This document shows positions 1,979 through 6,302 of a DNA stretch of 64,000 nucleotides, in pieces. The DNA is from Chryseolinea soli (GTDB taxonomy: Bacteria > Bacteroidota > Bacteroidia > Cytophagales > Cyclobacteriaceae), in contig NZ_CP032382.1 in NCBI RefSeq assembly GCF_003589925.1, forward strand, positions 7,750,001 through 7,814,000. The letters run 5' to 3'. How positions within the stretch are numbered: position 1 is the first letter of the stretch; the number at the start of each line of letters is the position of its first letter. The position numbers and the translations under genes are program-made. A model generated the notes under the pieces. That model searched no databases. It had not been told where the DNA came from and saw nothing but the letters and a program-made list of their open reading frames with translations.

Positions 1979-4107
1979 TTTGCTACAGCTACTTTTTCTA
2001 CGACGTTCTCGCCAGTTTCTGCGGCGCGGTAAGCGGCCACATCTTCCATGAATTTTGTCGACTCGGCAATGAATTTTGCGGCAAAGGCTTCAGAGGGTTC
2101 GTTCTTGTTGATGCGGAGCACGTATTCCTTGAAGTTGCCTTCGAAGGGAAACACTCCGGTATCCACAAACTCTTTCTGGAAGTCGCTGATGGTTTGATAT
2201 TGCGTGCTCGGTTTGATATCGCGACCCAGCAACAACGCCTTCGCACTGTTGATAAACGCGCTATAGCTATGATAGATCGAATCGGCATACAGTCCTTGGT
2301 CGTAAGCTTCTTTCGCCCATCCGAGTTTGTCTTCCGAATCGTATAACAATGTTGCCACGAGGTCGATGATCACGCCTGCGCATTCGCCCACGGCGGTGTG
2401 CAGAATGAAATTGTGATCCTGACCCCAGTCGATATATTCTTCCGGCAATACCGCCGTGATGTCGCCAAGCGGCTTCAGCAATTGATAAAAATGGTTGCGG
2501 CCAAGACGCTTGAAGTAGTCGTGGTAGTATTCGCCTTCGAGGCTGTTGGTCTCGTAGTCGGTAAACAGGATACGCAATGCGTCGGGGCCGCGTTTGCTGG
2601 GGATCTTAATGATCTTGTCGGAGATGATGCCTTCGCCGTTCTTCACTTTGCCTCCACCCAACAGGACCACCAGCGCGGGCATTACCTTGCCTTGCTTGTC
2701 TTTGATGGTGCTGCCGTGCAGACCGATGCTGGCCAGGCCGTGCTGACCGCATGAATTGGGGCAGCCGCTGATCTTGATCTTGATATCGTTGTTGTAGATG
2801 AGGTCCGGGAACTCATTGCGGATCACCTTTTCCAGTGCCAGCGAAATGTTGGTACTGTCGGAGATACCGAGGTTACAGGTATCCGTTCCAGGGCACGCCG
2901 TGATATCGGCCACACTGTCGAAGCCGGGTTCGGCCAAGCCCAATTGGTCGAGGGCCACGTAGAGGTGCGTCAGGTTCTCGGGGCGCACGAAGCGGAGGAG
3001 ATAGCCTTGGTTGATCGTTACACGCATGTCGTCCGCAGCGTACTGGTCCACCACATTGGCAAACTGACGGGCCAACTTCGACGACAAGTTACCCAGGGGA
3101 ACTCTCACGTTCACGCCAAAGAATCCGGGTTGTTTTTGCTCGAACACGTTGGTGTCTTTCCAGCGGTCGTAGCGCTTCTGATCGGCGATCGCTGCCGGAC
3201 CGGTGGCTACTTCGCTCGGGATCACTGCGTCGGGCAGTATCGCGGTGTTGATGTGATACGATTTGTTTTTGATAGCGGTTCTTTCTTCGGCCACCAGCGC
3301 CATCACTTTTTCCAACCCGATGTCGGTCAGTAAAAATTTGAAGCGCGCCTTCATGCGGCGGTTGCGTTCGCCATAGCGATCGAACACGCGGAGCACCGCT
3401 TCGGCGAAGGGAATGATCTGATCTTCTTCCAGAAAGTCATAGGCCAGTTCGGCCAGGGTCGGGTTGGCGCCAAGACCACCACCGATCATTACCTTAAAGC
3501 CACGCTTGCCATCGACGATGCGGGGGATGAAGCCCAGGTCGTGGATGAAGCTGAAAGCAGTATCTTCTTCGCTGGAAGAAAATGAAATTTTGAATTTACG
3601 ACCCATTTCCTGGCAGATGGGATTGCGTAGAAAATAGCGGAACATCTCGTGCGCATAAGGCGACACATCGAAGGGCTCCTTCGGGTCGATGCCGGCCGTG
3701 GCGGAAGCGGTTATGTTACGAACTGTATTTCCGCAGGCTTCGCGTGTGGTGATCTCGTCTTTTTCCAGCTTGGCCCATAGCTCAGGGGTTTTGTCCAGGC
3801 TCACGTAGTGGATCTGGATATCCTGGCGCGTGGTGGCGTGCAGGGTGCTGCTGGCGTATTCGTCGGAGATGTCGGCGATGCGGCGGATCTGCTTGGTGCT
3901 CAATCTTCCGAAGGGAAGCTTGATGCGGATCATTTGCACGCCGGGTTGGCGCTGACCATAGATACCGCGTGCAAGCCGGAGGCTCCGGAATTTTTCGTCA
4001 TCAATCTTGCCGTCGCGAAAAAGCTGGATCTTTTTTGACAGGTCGATGATGTCGCGTGCAACGACGGGGTTATTCAAGTCTTCTAATTCTGTGCGGAAGC
4101 TTTCCAT
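1975..4107 (-). CDS. Siroheme sulfite/nitrite reductase with C-terminal HEPN-like domain
   Basis: Assimilatory six-electron reductase, reducing sulfite to sulfide or nitrite to ammonia in the cytosol. Two ferredoxin-like/siroheme half repeats fill about residues 1-530. The [4Fe-4S]-siroheme cysteines are visible as CPGTDTC (about 404 and 410) and GCPNSC (about 448 and 452). The last 150 residues (helical, about 560-700) resemble the HEPN-like tail found on the Bacteroidota form, which makes the protein 710 residues against about 570 for CysI. Sulfite is favoured over nitrite because the leader upstream carries a cysteine-rich peptide and no nitrate genes are nearby; this is inference. First gene of the operon with cobA and the siroheme dehydrogenase. 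Confidence 0.88.
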   Translation of the reverse strand: MESFRTELEDLNNPVVARDIIDLSKKIQLFRDGKIDDEKFRSLRLARGIYGQRQPGVQMIRIKLPFGRLSTKQIRRIADISDEYASSTLHATTRQDIQIHYVSLDKTPELWAKLEKDEITTREACGNTVRNITASATAGIDPKEPFDVSPYAHEMFRYFLRNPICQEMGRKFKISFSSSEEDTAFSFIHDLGFIPRIVDGKRGFKVMIGGGLGANPTLAELAYDFLEEDQIIPFAEAVLRVFDRYGERNRRMKARFKFLLTDIGLEKVMALVAEERTAIKNKSYHINTAILPDAVIPSEVATGPAAIADQKRYDRWKDTNVFEQKQPGFFGVNVRVPLGNLSSKLARQFANVVDQYAADDMRVTINQGYLLRFVRPENLTHLYVALDQLGLAEPGFDSVADITACPGTDTCNLGISDSTNISLALEKVIRNEFPDLIYNNDIKIKISGCPNSCGQHGLASIGLHGSTIKDKQGKVMPALVVLLGGGKVKNGEGIISDKIIKIPSKRGPDALRILFTDYETNSLEGEYYHDYFKRLGRNHFYQLLKPLGDITAVLPEEYIDWGQDHNFILHTAVGECAGVIIDLVATLLYDSEDKLGWAKEAYDQGLYADSIYHSYSAFINSAKALLLGRDIKPSTQYQTISDFQKEFVDTGVFPFEGNFKEYVLRINKNEPSEAFAAKFIAESTKFMEDVAAYRAAETGENVVEKVAVAK

Positions 4108-4140
4108 GTTCTAGCGGTTGTTCGTTTGGTGGCGATGTCG

Positions 4141-4177
4141 ATAAATAAAAGAGCCTTTCCTGTGGCAGGAAAGGCTC
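4141..4177 (-). terminator. Intrinsic terminator inside the reductase leader (attenuator)
   Basis: A perfect 12-bp stem (arms 4151-4162 and 4166-4177) with a 3-base loop, followed on the minus strand by TTTTATTTAT. It lies 33 bases upstream of the reductase start codon, that is, between the promoter and the first structural gene, so it must be conditionally bypassed for the operon to be expressed. Its 5' arm contains UUCCUGC, complementary to a segment of the leader open frame at 4234-4240. Confidence 0.88.
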
Positions 4178-4240
4178 GGTATGTTTTGTGTTTGTTAGAC
4201 GATTCGATTTGTGTTTGTCTTACGTACCGGATATTCCTGC
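4166..4240 (-). promoter_or_regulatory. Candidate antiterminator pairing, leader peptide frame with terminator 5' arm
   Basis: In the minus-strand RNA, GCAGGAA (from 4234-4240, inside the leader frame) is perfectly complementary over 7 bases to UUCCUGC in the terminator's 5' arm. It lies about 20 bases downstream of the three cysteine codons (4259-4267) and within ribosome-footprint distance of the stop codon (4220-4222). A ribosome stalled on the cysteine codons would leave it free to pair and block the terminator; a ribosome that reaches the stop codon would cover it. The pairing is seen in the sequence; the mechanism is inferred. Confidence 0.55.
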
Positions 4241-4315
4241 ATGGGCATTAAGATGTTTACAGCAACACTTCGCTGTGTTCATCTTCTTGGTTGTACAGGA
4301 AATCACATTTTTCAT
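4220..4315 (-). CDS. Cysteine-rich leader peptide upstream of sulfite reductase
   Basis: A very short frame on the reductase's strand. From the ATG at 4313-4315 it encodes 31 residues; from the in-frame ATG at 4280-4282 it encodes 20, reading M-N-T-A-K-C-C-C-K-H-L-N-A-H and ending I-S-G-T before TAA. Three consecutive Cys codons (TGT TGC TGT) occupy 4259-4267, and the long form has a fourth Cys. It sits after a promoter-like sequence and 42 bases before a terminator stem, as leader peptides of amino-acid attenuators do. A metal- or thiol-binding small protein is the alternative. The start choice is open; the short form has purine-rich AAGAAG directly before it. Confidence 0.65.
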   Translation of the reverse strand: MKNVISCTTKKMNTAKCCCKHLNAHAGISGT

Positions 4316-4350
4316 ATCTATATATCTTATCTATTCTATAATATCTATCA

Positions 4351-4381
4351 CGAAAGTAGACTATGCTTTACAAAATTCAAA
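4351..4381 (-). promoter_or_regulatory. Bacteroidota-type promoter for the reductase operon
   Basis: On the minus strand TTTG (4378-4381) is followed after 19 bases by TACTTTCG (4351-4358), one mismatch from the Bacteroidota -7 consensus TAnnTTTG. Transcription would begin near 4345, just ahead of the leader peptide and about 240 bases before the reductase start. The remainder of the interval, 4382-4556, shows no feature I can support. Confidence 0.55.
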
Positions 4382-4556
4382 TCAATATGTTATAAAAATT
4401 GTCTTTTCACCGGCTTAACAACTGTTCGTATCGCAGCGCAATCGAATGTTCCCAGCAAAAATCACTTGTTACGGGTGATCCAAATTTGCCCCGGCGCTGG
4501 CAACTTCGCTTCCTGAACCAGGTTCGGCCTCGCCTTATGAACGGTCTAACGTCGAT

Positions 4557-5243
4557 ATGCTAGCTTTCGTTTCCGGAACAGGAGTTTTACTGGGCACACT
4601 CACCTCATTTTTTTTACTGATGGTGAAGCAGCCGCGGCACGAGCATGCCGTACGCTTCCTGGGGTTGTATACGTTGTCGTTAACGGTAGGGCTTGCGGAA
4701 CCGCTGATCCCTTTAAGCAACCTGCTGCTGCGTTACGCTGCCGGCGGTGTCAGTTTGCTGTATGGACCTTTCCTCTGCCTCTACTGCCAACACCGGATGG
4801 ACGCTGACCGCAGGGTCCGGTCGTCCTGGAAACACTTCCTCCCCTTTCTTGTCTACGGTTTGTTGTTGACCGCAGAAAAGTCTTTCGCCGGGGCGCCAAT
4901 CGAGGTCCGCGAAGGTGTGGAACTGGTTTTGTATATCCTGCTGTTCACGCAGATCATCGGTTATTGCTTTATGGCCGATCTTTATGTGCGGCATTTCCAG
5001 GAACACATCGCGGGTGCCAATGTGTTTACGCGGAGCAGTCGTTTGTTCTTTTTGAAAATGATCGTGCGCGTTTCGGGGGTGTTCTTTCTGGCCACGTTTA
5101 TGGTGAGCCTTTGCCAGGCATTGTTTGGGTTTGCCTATCGCGAGGAGCTGTCGATCTCTATCCAGGTAGGCGTTTGCCTGATCTTATTTTTGATCGCGCT
5201 GCTGAACACTGAAACGATGCATGCGGAAAAGATGGTGGAGTAG
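4557..5243 (+). CDS. Seven-helix-like membrane protein lacking an output domain
   Basis: A 228-residue hydrophobic protein with about seven predicted membrane segments (about residues 1-22, 33-52, 57-76, 92-108, 121-142, 161-184 and 196-214). The layout resembles the membrane sensor half of Bacteroidota AraC-type regulators, in which the helices are followed by a cytoplasmic AraC helix-turn-helix. Here the frame stops 14 residues after the last helix and no DNA-binding domain follows, because the next gene converges 2 bp away. It may be a truncated regulator or a self-contained sensor. No closer family is recognised. Confidence 0.65.
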   Translation: MLAFVSGTGVLLGTLTSFFLLMVKQPRHEHAVRFLGLYTLSLTVGLAEPLIPLSNLLLRYAAGGVSLLYGPFLCLYCQHRMDADRRVRSSWKHFLPFLVYGLLLTAEKSFAGAPIEVREGVELVLYILLFTQIIGYCFMADLYVRHFQEHIAGANVFTRSSRLFFLKMIVRVSGVFFLATFMVSLCQALFGFAYREELSISIQVGVCLILFLIALLNTETMHAEKMVE

Positions 5244-5245
5244 CG

Positions 5246-5650
5246 TTATCGATCCTTCAACCGGAAAACAAATTTCAACCCCGACCACACCTCGTCGACG
5301 GCGCAAACTTTTACATCGACCAAGCCATTCTTCAGGCCAAAATCGCGGATCACATTTTCATCGAGGTCTGTCGCCACCTTCGAGGCTTTCTTGGGCCACG
5401 ACACCCACAACATGCCGTCTTTCTTCAGGTACGCCTGGCCACGGAGAAATTCCTTCTCGAACACGGCTTGCTCTTTGACAAAGATGTGAATGAAATCCAG
5501 CGTACCCGACGCCTTCTCTTTCACCTTGACGCCATCCGGCAATGCGCCCAGCAGATCGAAGTAGTCGGCCGGGGGCTTAAAAGCATAAACACTGGTATTT
5601 TCCTTAATGCCCAGTTTTTTTAAAAGGGGTGTGCCGGAATAGCCTGCCAT
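5246..5650 (-). CDS. DUF3052-family protein
   Basis: A 134-residue soluble protein beginning M-A-G-Y-S-G-T-P-L-L-K-K-L-G-I, the characteristic start of the DUF3052 family. The L-W-V-S-W-P-K motif at about residues 80-86 and the following K-V-A-T-D-L-D-E-N-V-I-R are also family features. The function is unknown; the fold is thought to resemble methyltransferase-like Rossmann domains without a clear SAM motif. It is transcribed alone and converges on the membrane protein at 4557-5243. Confidence 0.82.
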   Translation of the reverse strand: MAGYSGTPLLKKLGIKENTSVYAFKPPADYFDLLGALPDGVKVKEKASGTLDFIHIFVKEQAVFEKEFLRGQAYLKKDGMLWVSWPKKASKVATDLDENVIRDFGLKNGLVDVKVCAVDEVWSGLKFVFRLKDR

Positions 5651-5676
5651 GGTTTGCGAGATTGGTCTACCCTAAA

Positions 5677-5707
5677 ATGCAAAATGCCCCGGTGATTACC
5701 GAGGCAT
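5677..5707 (-). terminator. Terminator after the lipoprotein gene at 5733
   Basis: Stem arms 5684-5693 and 5698-5707 (ATGCCcCGGT / ACCGaGGCAT, one C-A mismatch) with loop GATT. On the minus strand it is followed by TTTTGCATTTT. Confidence 0.65.
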
Positions 5708-5732
5708 CTGTGCAGAAAATTGAAGTGTGGGC

Positions 5733-6302
5733 TTAGTTGTTGTTGCCCATTTTCTCCATTTCCTTTTCAAAGGTATCCTTGAACTTCTCGTAGTCGTAGT
5801 CGATCTTCAGGCGATCGTCCTTGGAAAGACGTTCGTTGTAGGTGGCCACCAGTTCTTCGGCCGACAGTTCGATCGCGATGTAGGTTTTGTACGTGGCGTT
5901 CTCGGTCTTCATCAGCTTTTCGCAAATGGTTTTGAGGCCGGTGAGTTTCTGATCCACGATCTCGCGGTTCAGTTGTTCGAAACGTTCCTCCACCTGTTCC
6001 TTGTTGTTCATTTCACGGGAGTTGGTGTAGTTGTCGGTAACGGCTTTTACCGTGGTTTGAATGCTGGCCGCAAGTTCTGCGCGTGCGTTGGCCAAGGCCT
6101 TCTTCTTGGACGTTACCTGGTCCTGGCTTTCACCGATGGAGTTGGCGCGGAAGAATTTGCTTGTGGTAAAGAAATCAGGGCCCGAACACGGTACGTTTAC
6201 TTCTGTTTCGCCTTTCGGGGTCTTCTCTTTGCTTTTACAAGCATCCAGGAGAACGCTTCCGAGAGCAACCAGCATCAAGGTAGAATAGGTGATTCGTTTC
6301 AT
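5733..6302 (-). CDS. Lipoprotein of unknown function, LPP20-like
   Basis: A 189-residue protein starting M-K-R-I-T-Y-S-T-L, with a hydrophobic leader ending in L-L-D-A-C, a plausible lipobox cleaved before the cysteine. The mature part has an alpha/beta region (about 35-150, including alternating A-x-x-x-A-R-A-E-L-A helices) like LPP20/FlgT-type lipoproteins, then a charged helical tail ending in N-N-N. An ATG three codons upstream (6309-6311) is also possible. The adjacent gene upstream on the same strand (6392-7756) is a larger LPP20-type lipoprotein, so the two probably act together at the cell envelope. The exact role is unknown. Confidence 0.68.
   Translation of the reverse strand: MKRITYSTLMLVALGSVLLDACKSKEKTPKGETEVNVPCSGPDFFTTSKFFRANSIGESQDQVTSKKKALANARAELAASIQTTVKAVTDNYTNSREMNNKEQVEERFEQLNREIVDQKLTGLKTICEKLMKTENATYKTYIAIELSAEELVATYNERLSKDDRLKIDYDYEKFKDTFEKEMEKMGNNN

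Follow-up and report, generated by a model that had tools for sequence, protein, structure and literature searches.

What controls the nitrite/sulfite reductase-type gene (SiR) encoded in a 64,000-nucleotide stretch of the Chryseolinea soli genome, here called the window? The first-pass annotation proposed a cysteine-responsive attenuator: a promoter, a short open reading frame (ORF) with three consecutive Cys codons and an intrinsic terminator, all in front of the gene. Comparative tests on SiR upstream regions support this interpretation, and we consider it highly probable that SiR and the siroheme genes behind it are under ribosome-mediated transcription attenuation responsive to Cys-tRNA.

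Architecture of the SiR leader region

The features of the locus are as follows.

4381–4351, minus strand: promoter-like site of the Bacteroidota type, TTTG-N19-TACTTTCG, matching 9/10 letters of the consensus
4315–4220, minus strand: leader ORF, 31 codons plus stop, translation MKNVISCTTKKMNTAKCCCKHLNAHAGISGT*
4301–4294, minus strand: possible segment 1 (protector), pairing with 4234–4241 in the predicted fold of the window sequence
4267–4259, minus strand: Cys codon triplet TGT TGC TGT, proposed stall site; the CC is invariant in the 11-row alignment A1
4240–4225, minus strand: segment 2, antiterminator 5′ side, predicted to pair with 4165–4181; co-variation over 57 loci
4222–4220, minus strand: leader stop codon TAA, from the translation
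4181–4165, minus strand: segment 3, antiterminator 3′ side, overlapping the 5′ arm of the terminator
4177–4141, minus strand: intrinsic terminator, 12-bp perfect stem (4177–4166/4162–4151), loop 4165–4163, U-rich tail, −21.0 kcal/mol
4107–1975, minus strand: SiR, 710 aa (PF01077, PF03460; HEPN below cut-off)
1978–1193, minus strand: uroporphyrinogen-III C-methyltransferase, siroheme synthesis (TIGR01469 and NF004790 above cut-off)
1181–588, minus strand: precorrin-2 dehydrogenase-like protein of the siroheme synthase N-terminal type (TIGR01470 above cut-off)

The promoter-like site, frame, Cys triplet, stop codon and 12-bp terminator described in the first-pass annotation are confirmed to the base on the minus strand, as is the exact complementarity of GCAGGAA (4240–4234) to UUCCUGC (4171–4165). 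The predicted antiterminator extends past the 7 bp of the first-pass annotation and also pairs 4230–4225 with 4175–4181. The leader ORF holds a fourth Cys codon (4297–4295, minus strand), and the terminator stem starts 42 nt past the ORF stop. Alignment A4 has segment 1 in L002 and in none of its remaining 12 rows, so it is not a conserved part; a conserved 1:2 protector stem was accordingly rejected, although the fold of the window sequence predicts such a stem there.

At least 9 of the 10 letters of the same promoter consensus are matched by 35 of 74 leaders, compared with 5.4% of 740 letter-shuffled sequences. In 12 of the 74 (e.g., L003, L004, L007, L009, L142, and L188), a −7-like element lies 4–10 nt before the leader ATG, so those mRNAs may be almost leaderless.

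The regulated gene appears to fit the cysteine pathway, being an SiR-type protein, which would supply sulfide for cysteine synthesis, encoded with siroheme genes. At L247 and L252 a PAPS_reduct gene lies in the same gene run downstream of SiR, which would favor sulfite over nitrite as the substrate. The window's leader has no NCBIfam or Pfam match, and five other leaders have no NCBIfam match. Rfam returned no curated cis-regulatory model over window positions 3000–6000; the one match there, of microRNA type and below threshold, is to the terminator hairpin. A divergent 228-aa ORF (4557–5243, plus strand) has no Pfam or NCBIfam match.

These parts suggest a model in which the position of the leader ribosome decides the fate of the transcript. 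When Cys-tRNA is ample, the ribosome would reach the stop codon at 4222–4220 and, by usual ribosome footprint sizes, cover most of 4240–4234; with segment 2 covered, the 12-bp terminator would form and transcription would end near 4141. When Cys-tRNA is scarce, the ribosome would stall at 4267–4259 and leave segment 2 free to pair with the newly made terminator 5′ arm, and RNA polymerase would continue into SiR. Translation of the leader ORF, stalling at its Cys codons, a kinetic competition between the two structures and a response to cysteine are what the model would entail.

Distribution of the leader

Taken alone, the window sequence is weak evidence for such a switch, because TGY triplets are common (the 8.24-Mb genome has 1488 TGY-TGY-TGY and 1651 occurrences of the reversed pattern used as a control) and the pairing of segment 2 with the terminator gives p = 0.037 against shuffles. 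The attenuator call owes its significance to conservation across loci. SiR is present in all six genomes of the window's genus, each with a Cys-rich leader ORF in the matching position, and terminators of a similar kind are present in relatives. We assembled a family sample of 90 SiR upstream regions (the 30 best-scoring loci plus 60 hand-picked, mostly one per genus), drawn from 180 matching genomes among 245 searched, and a set of named loci comprising the top 80 out of at least 591; among these 80, the nearest SiR to that of the window is from a Fulvivirgaceae bacterium, which agrees with the Cytophagales relatives assumed in the first-pass annotation. The two sets overlap, since the SiR proteins of L118, L120, and L121 are identical or near-identical to those of L011, L025, and L026.

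Under a stricter rule, which calls for at least three Cys in nine residues plus a terminator, 56/90 family and 16/80 named regions pass, whereas the antisense strands give 0/90 and 0/80, shuffles 1/450 (family) and 0/400 (named), and random windows 0/409. A looser rule (two Cys in four residues plus a terminator) is passed by 60/90 and 28/80, with 2/90 and 2/80 on the antisense strand and 0/450 and 2/400 among shuffles. The remaining 30 family regions fail it, as do most of the named loci. By genus, 28 of the 51 sampled have the leader, counting L039 and L074, which were judged by eye. Named carriers include Reichenbachiella agariperforans, Pedobacter suwonensis, Pedobacter miscanthi, Mucilaginibacter aquatilis and some Chitinophaga, so the leader spans Cytophagales, Sphingobacteriales and Chitinophagales. 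One Pontibacter locus (L128) passes the looser rule but is doubtful, and no credible leader was seen at the loci viewed from Spirosoma, Larkinella, Emticicia, Fibrella and others. Loci whose leaders have few and scattered Cys codons (e.g., L133, L136, L153, and L169) fail the looser rule despite a terminator in place.

In a FastTree phylogeny of 110 SiR proteins, leader presence needs 20 changes, compared with 36.6 for shuffled labels (0/500 as low), with L196 set as leaderless despite passing the looser rule and L147, L159, L164, and L173 set as carriers whose leader lies farther upstream. This pattern suggests that the leader is inherited in clades, and that it was gained or lost many times or else goes undetected by the rule in places.

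At L147, L159, and L173 a Cys leader lies 750–1000 nt upstream of SiR, and the gene behind it, named by eye, is aldo/keto reductase-like (L147, L159) or peroxiredoxin-like (L173). For 20 family genomes without a leader, an extra 7 kb of sequence upstream of SiR gave just one weak rule match (L092). Cys-rich frames with low scores are found in this extra sequence at L102 and L105. L100 and L110 have ORFs ending in 5 and 7 Cys, at about −1400 and about −1800 from SiR, respectively, where the rule found no terminator.

Segment 2 and the terminator vary together

The pairing was tested at 74 loci that pass an ORF-plus-terminator rule and have a CC pair, a requirement that drops L013 and L014; the named loci were 15 hand-chosen ones, leaving out Chitinophaga and most Cys-poor Mucilaginibacter leaders. 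At 47/74 loci, pairing between the terminator 5′ arm and the stretch past the last Cys codon beats 95% of shuffles, and at 24/74 it beats 99%; the median z is −2.3, and the pairing starts at a median of 12 nt past that codon. Cys makes up 15.2% of leader residues, in ORFs that had been selected for Cys. Singly, three of the six genus leaders reach p < 0.05 (L004, L005, and L006 fail), and 7 of the 15 named loci fail, including Reichenbachiella and all four Pedobacter.

Stronger evidence comes from exchanging terminators between loci. After removal of near copies, which reduces relatedness among the leaders without removing it, 57 of the 74 remained. Their segments pair with their own terminators at a mean of −13.3 kcal/mol, compared with −9.3 (SD 0.34) for swapped terminators; none of 20,000 permutations reaches the matched mean, and the lowest is −10.8. 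A control stretch upstream of the Cys run gives −5.9 versus −5.6 (p = 0.12) over the same 57 loci. A locus's own terminator is the best partner in 9/57 and among the top three in 24/57, and in some it ranks near last. The sequence signature of an attenuator is in place, with a Cys-codon leader ORF and a terminator between ORF and gene, and the mutually exclusive antiterminator is borne out over the 57 loci jointly, while not being significant at every single one.

The first-pass annotation had predicted that the Cys codons, the terminator and compensatory changes in the pairing would be conserved among relatives. Cys codons, terminator and frame/terminator pairing are indeed kept. Compensatory changes are seen between lineages, where both partners differ together (GCAGGA/UCCUGC, GGGAAAGG/CCUUUCC, and CCAGGGG/CCCCUGG), but there are none within the nearest group because the core pairing is invariant there. 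The terminator arms differ by group (CCUUUCCUGC, CCUUUCC, CCCCUGG, and CCUCUGCGGAU), and segment 2 has changed along with them. On sequence and comparative evidence, we regard as established which parts the proposed attenuator has, how they are ordered, that they are conserved and that segment 2 and the terminator co-vary.

Predicted folds are consistent with a switch that depends on timing. With the RNA accessible from 4250 onward and the terminator 3′ arm still unmade, the antiterminator forms (−16.6); with accessibility beginning only at 4212, no structure forms ahead of the terminator. At equilibrium with segment 2 free, the terminator state (−26.9) wins over a fold with the antiterminator forced (−18.0), so antitermination would have to be kinetic. 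Several leaders from the RCACWFWCC branch, described below, have segment 2 at 20–50 nt before the stop codon; in these, masking of segment 2 by a ribosome that has reached the stop can be only part of the explanation.

Leader branches and a conserved peptide

The branch of leaders that includes the window, aligned in A1, shares CC, K and AG, and the AG is encoded by the GCAGGA of segment 2. Searching the window's own genome with profile A1 gave seven matches, the leader itself (9.7e-14) and six others (at least 0.12) in chance-like surroundings, and a second leader in this genome was rejected. A different branch, A2, carries the motif R-[CR]-A-C-W-[FYH]-W-C-C (leaders of L019–L030, L033, L036–L040, and L046). 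These 19 loci were picked by a pattern requiring R, A, C, W and CC, so the invariance of the motif is partly built in; the invariant Arg is nevertheless encoded by six codons and the Ala by four, the preceding N and K are also invariant, and the final two Cys codons are TGT in 19/19 and 18/19. All 19 small proteins that profile A2 found in a database of 5.8 billion share the core, in a search that favors shared words; one is called a hypothetical protein and the others are nameless. Across 395 genomes of the class, the same profile gave 15 weak matches, none of them at a Cys-dense ORF with a terminator; with no more than 18 candidates scored in each genome, the result is not a strong negative.

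Such a peptide raises the possibility that the leader is an arrest peptide, which would sense cysteine or another metabolite in the exit tunnel rather than charged tRNA-Cys and would act through the same terminator and antiterminator. Retention of N-x-K, A and the motif across synonymous codons, together with its recurrence in the database proteins, is what such a peptide would produce. The motif is, however, missing from the window's leader, whose branch has little in common apart from CC, K and the segment-2-encoding AG, and plain Cys runs, up to eight long (L050), occur in other leaders. Given how the A2 loci were selected, the independent evidence for an arrest peptide is limited to the synonymous variation and the preceding N, K and A, and we give this reading a slim chance.

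Alternatively, the ORF could encode a functional Cys-rich small protein, for example a metal-binding one, with the hairpin merely ending its own short transcript. A short transcript with its own terminator would resemble a leader, and copies from one branch do exist as predicted database proteins. A separate small gene would, however, leave the co-variation of segment 2 with the terminator arm unexplained, and the peptides diverge widely between branches except for Cys; we consider this very improbable. A chance ORF in front of an ordinary intergenic terminator, which the frequency of TGY triplets and the single-sequence p value might suggest, is refuted by the conservation found and by the antisense, shuffle, random-window and permutation controls, and unless the detection rule is faulty it is scarcely credible. 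We therefore retain attenuation by Cys-tRNA as the preferred reading.

Related designs at other loci

A classically built His-rich leader (MRNAINNSNHHHHHVKHTMRGTAVS in the window's genome) and a terminator lie upstream of hisG in all six genus genomes (L253–L258, of which L257 is the window's own), so leader-peptide attenuation looks like a working design in the genus. Of 12 ilvD loci, among them L260 at a contig start, 6 were tested, and none of the 6 has a poly-Ile/Leu/Val leader upstream of the gene. Thirty cysH/cysD upstream loci gave one weak rule match (L221). In a scan of ten more regions, the rule matched the SiR leaders of L247 and L252; weak matches at L247 (minus strand), L248 and L251 were taken as chance, and the two regions from the window's own genome gave no match.

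A more elaborate arrangement is found in one genus, g8, where an RF00162 SAM riboswitch aptamer is immediately followed by two successive poly-Cys ORFs and then SiR in 5/5 genomes examined (L063/L252, L082, L271, L272, and L273; a sixth genome with SiR, G181, was left out).

L063, 200–557; L252, 262–378; L082, minus strand: SAM riboswitch tandem

The first poly-Cys ORF starts ∼10–20 nt past the aptamer end in L063, L271, and L272. Among the subset of leader loci scanned, no SAM match occurs outside g8, and Rfam gave nothing but SAM riboswitches at the loci scanned besides the window. We suggest, tentatively, that Bacteroidota may have a large Cys leader family that goes beyond counting tRNA, with an arrest branch (RCACW[FYH]WCC) and, in g8, a joining of SAM and cysteine supply in a single transcript ahead of SiR; we consider this less likely than not.

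Comparison with known attenuators

If the model is correct, the leader gives cysteine a cis-acting, protein-free means of controlling sulfite reduction in Bacteroidota, this type of nitrite/sulfite reductase is marked as a cysteine-pathway enzyme, and dozens of natural variants with co-varying switch helices are at hand. The conserved-peptide branch and the SAM tandem would then be test beds for whether poly-Cys leaders read a peptide or a second metabolite, as opposed to counting tRNA only. The first-pass annotation knew of no such system for Bacteroidota SiR, and the literature matches listed, drawn from few subscription journals, likewise include no report of Cys leader attenuation in Bacteroidota or before SiR.

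Attenuators of the trp/his type comprise a codon run, a 2:3 antiterminator and a 3:4 terminator, with a 1:2 stem that is classical but not universal. The window has the same layout of codon run, 2:3 and 3:4, with a 1:2 protector stem that is predicted in its own fold but not conserved. Mycobacterial poly-Cys leaderless short ORFs are reportedly, going by the title of Canestrari et al. 2020, involved in cysteine-responsive attenuation. By that title alone they are similar poly-Cys ORFs in another phylum, and the near-leaderless position of some relatives here resembles its description.

Among systems described in more detail, uORFC-8-2 precedes cysS in Rhodobacterales and combines a leader ORF with tandem Cys codons, a U-run terminator and proposed read-through when Cys-tRNA is short (PMC8632094). 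It differs in belonging to Alphaproteobacteria and in having two Cys codons near positions 14–15 in front of cysS rather than SiR, and the likeness is one of design. In Actinobacteria, short ORFs with Cys runs precede the cys operons of Mycobacterium and Propionibacterium and cbs of Bifidobacterium, sulfur genes as in the window; the authors saw no conserved terminator hairpin, whereas the window has one (PMC1262725). Within the same phylum, leader-peptide attenuation is suspected before amino-acid operons of Flavobacterium psychrophilum, with no cysteine case named in the main text as available (PMC9723704). The principle of attenuation, by which the window's element would also work, is already known; within the literature searched, what is new is the phylum and SiR as a target, and what would surprise a specialist is the breadth of the family, its conserved-peptide branch and the tandem with a riboswitch.
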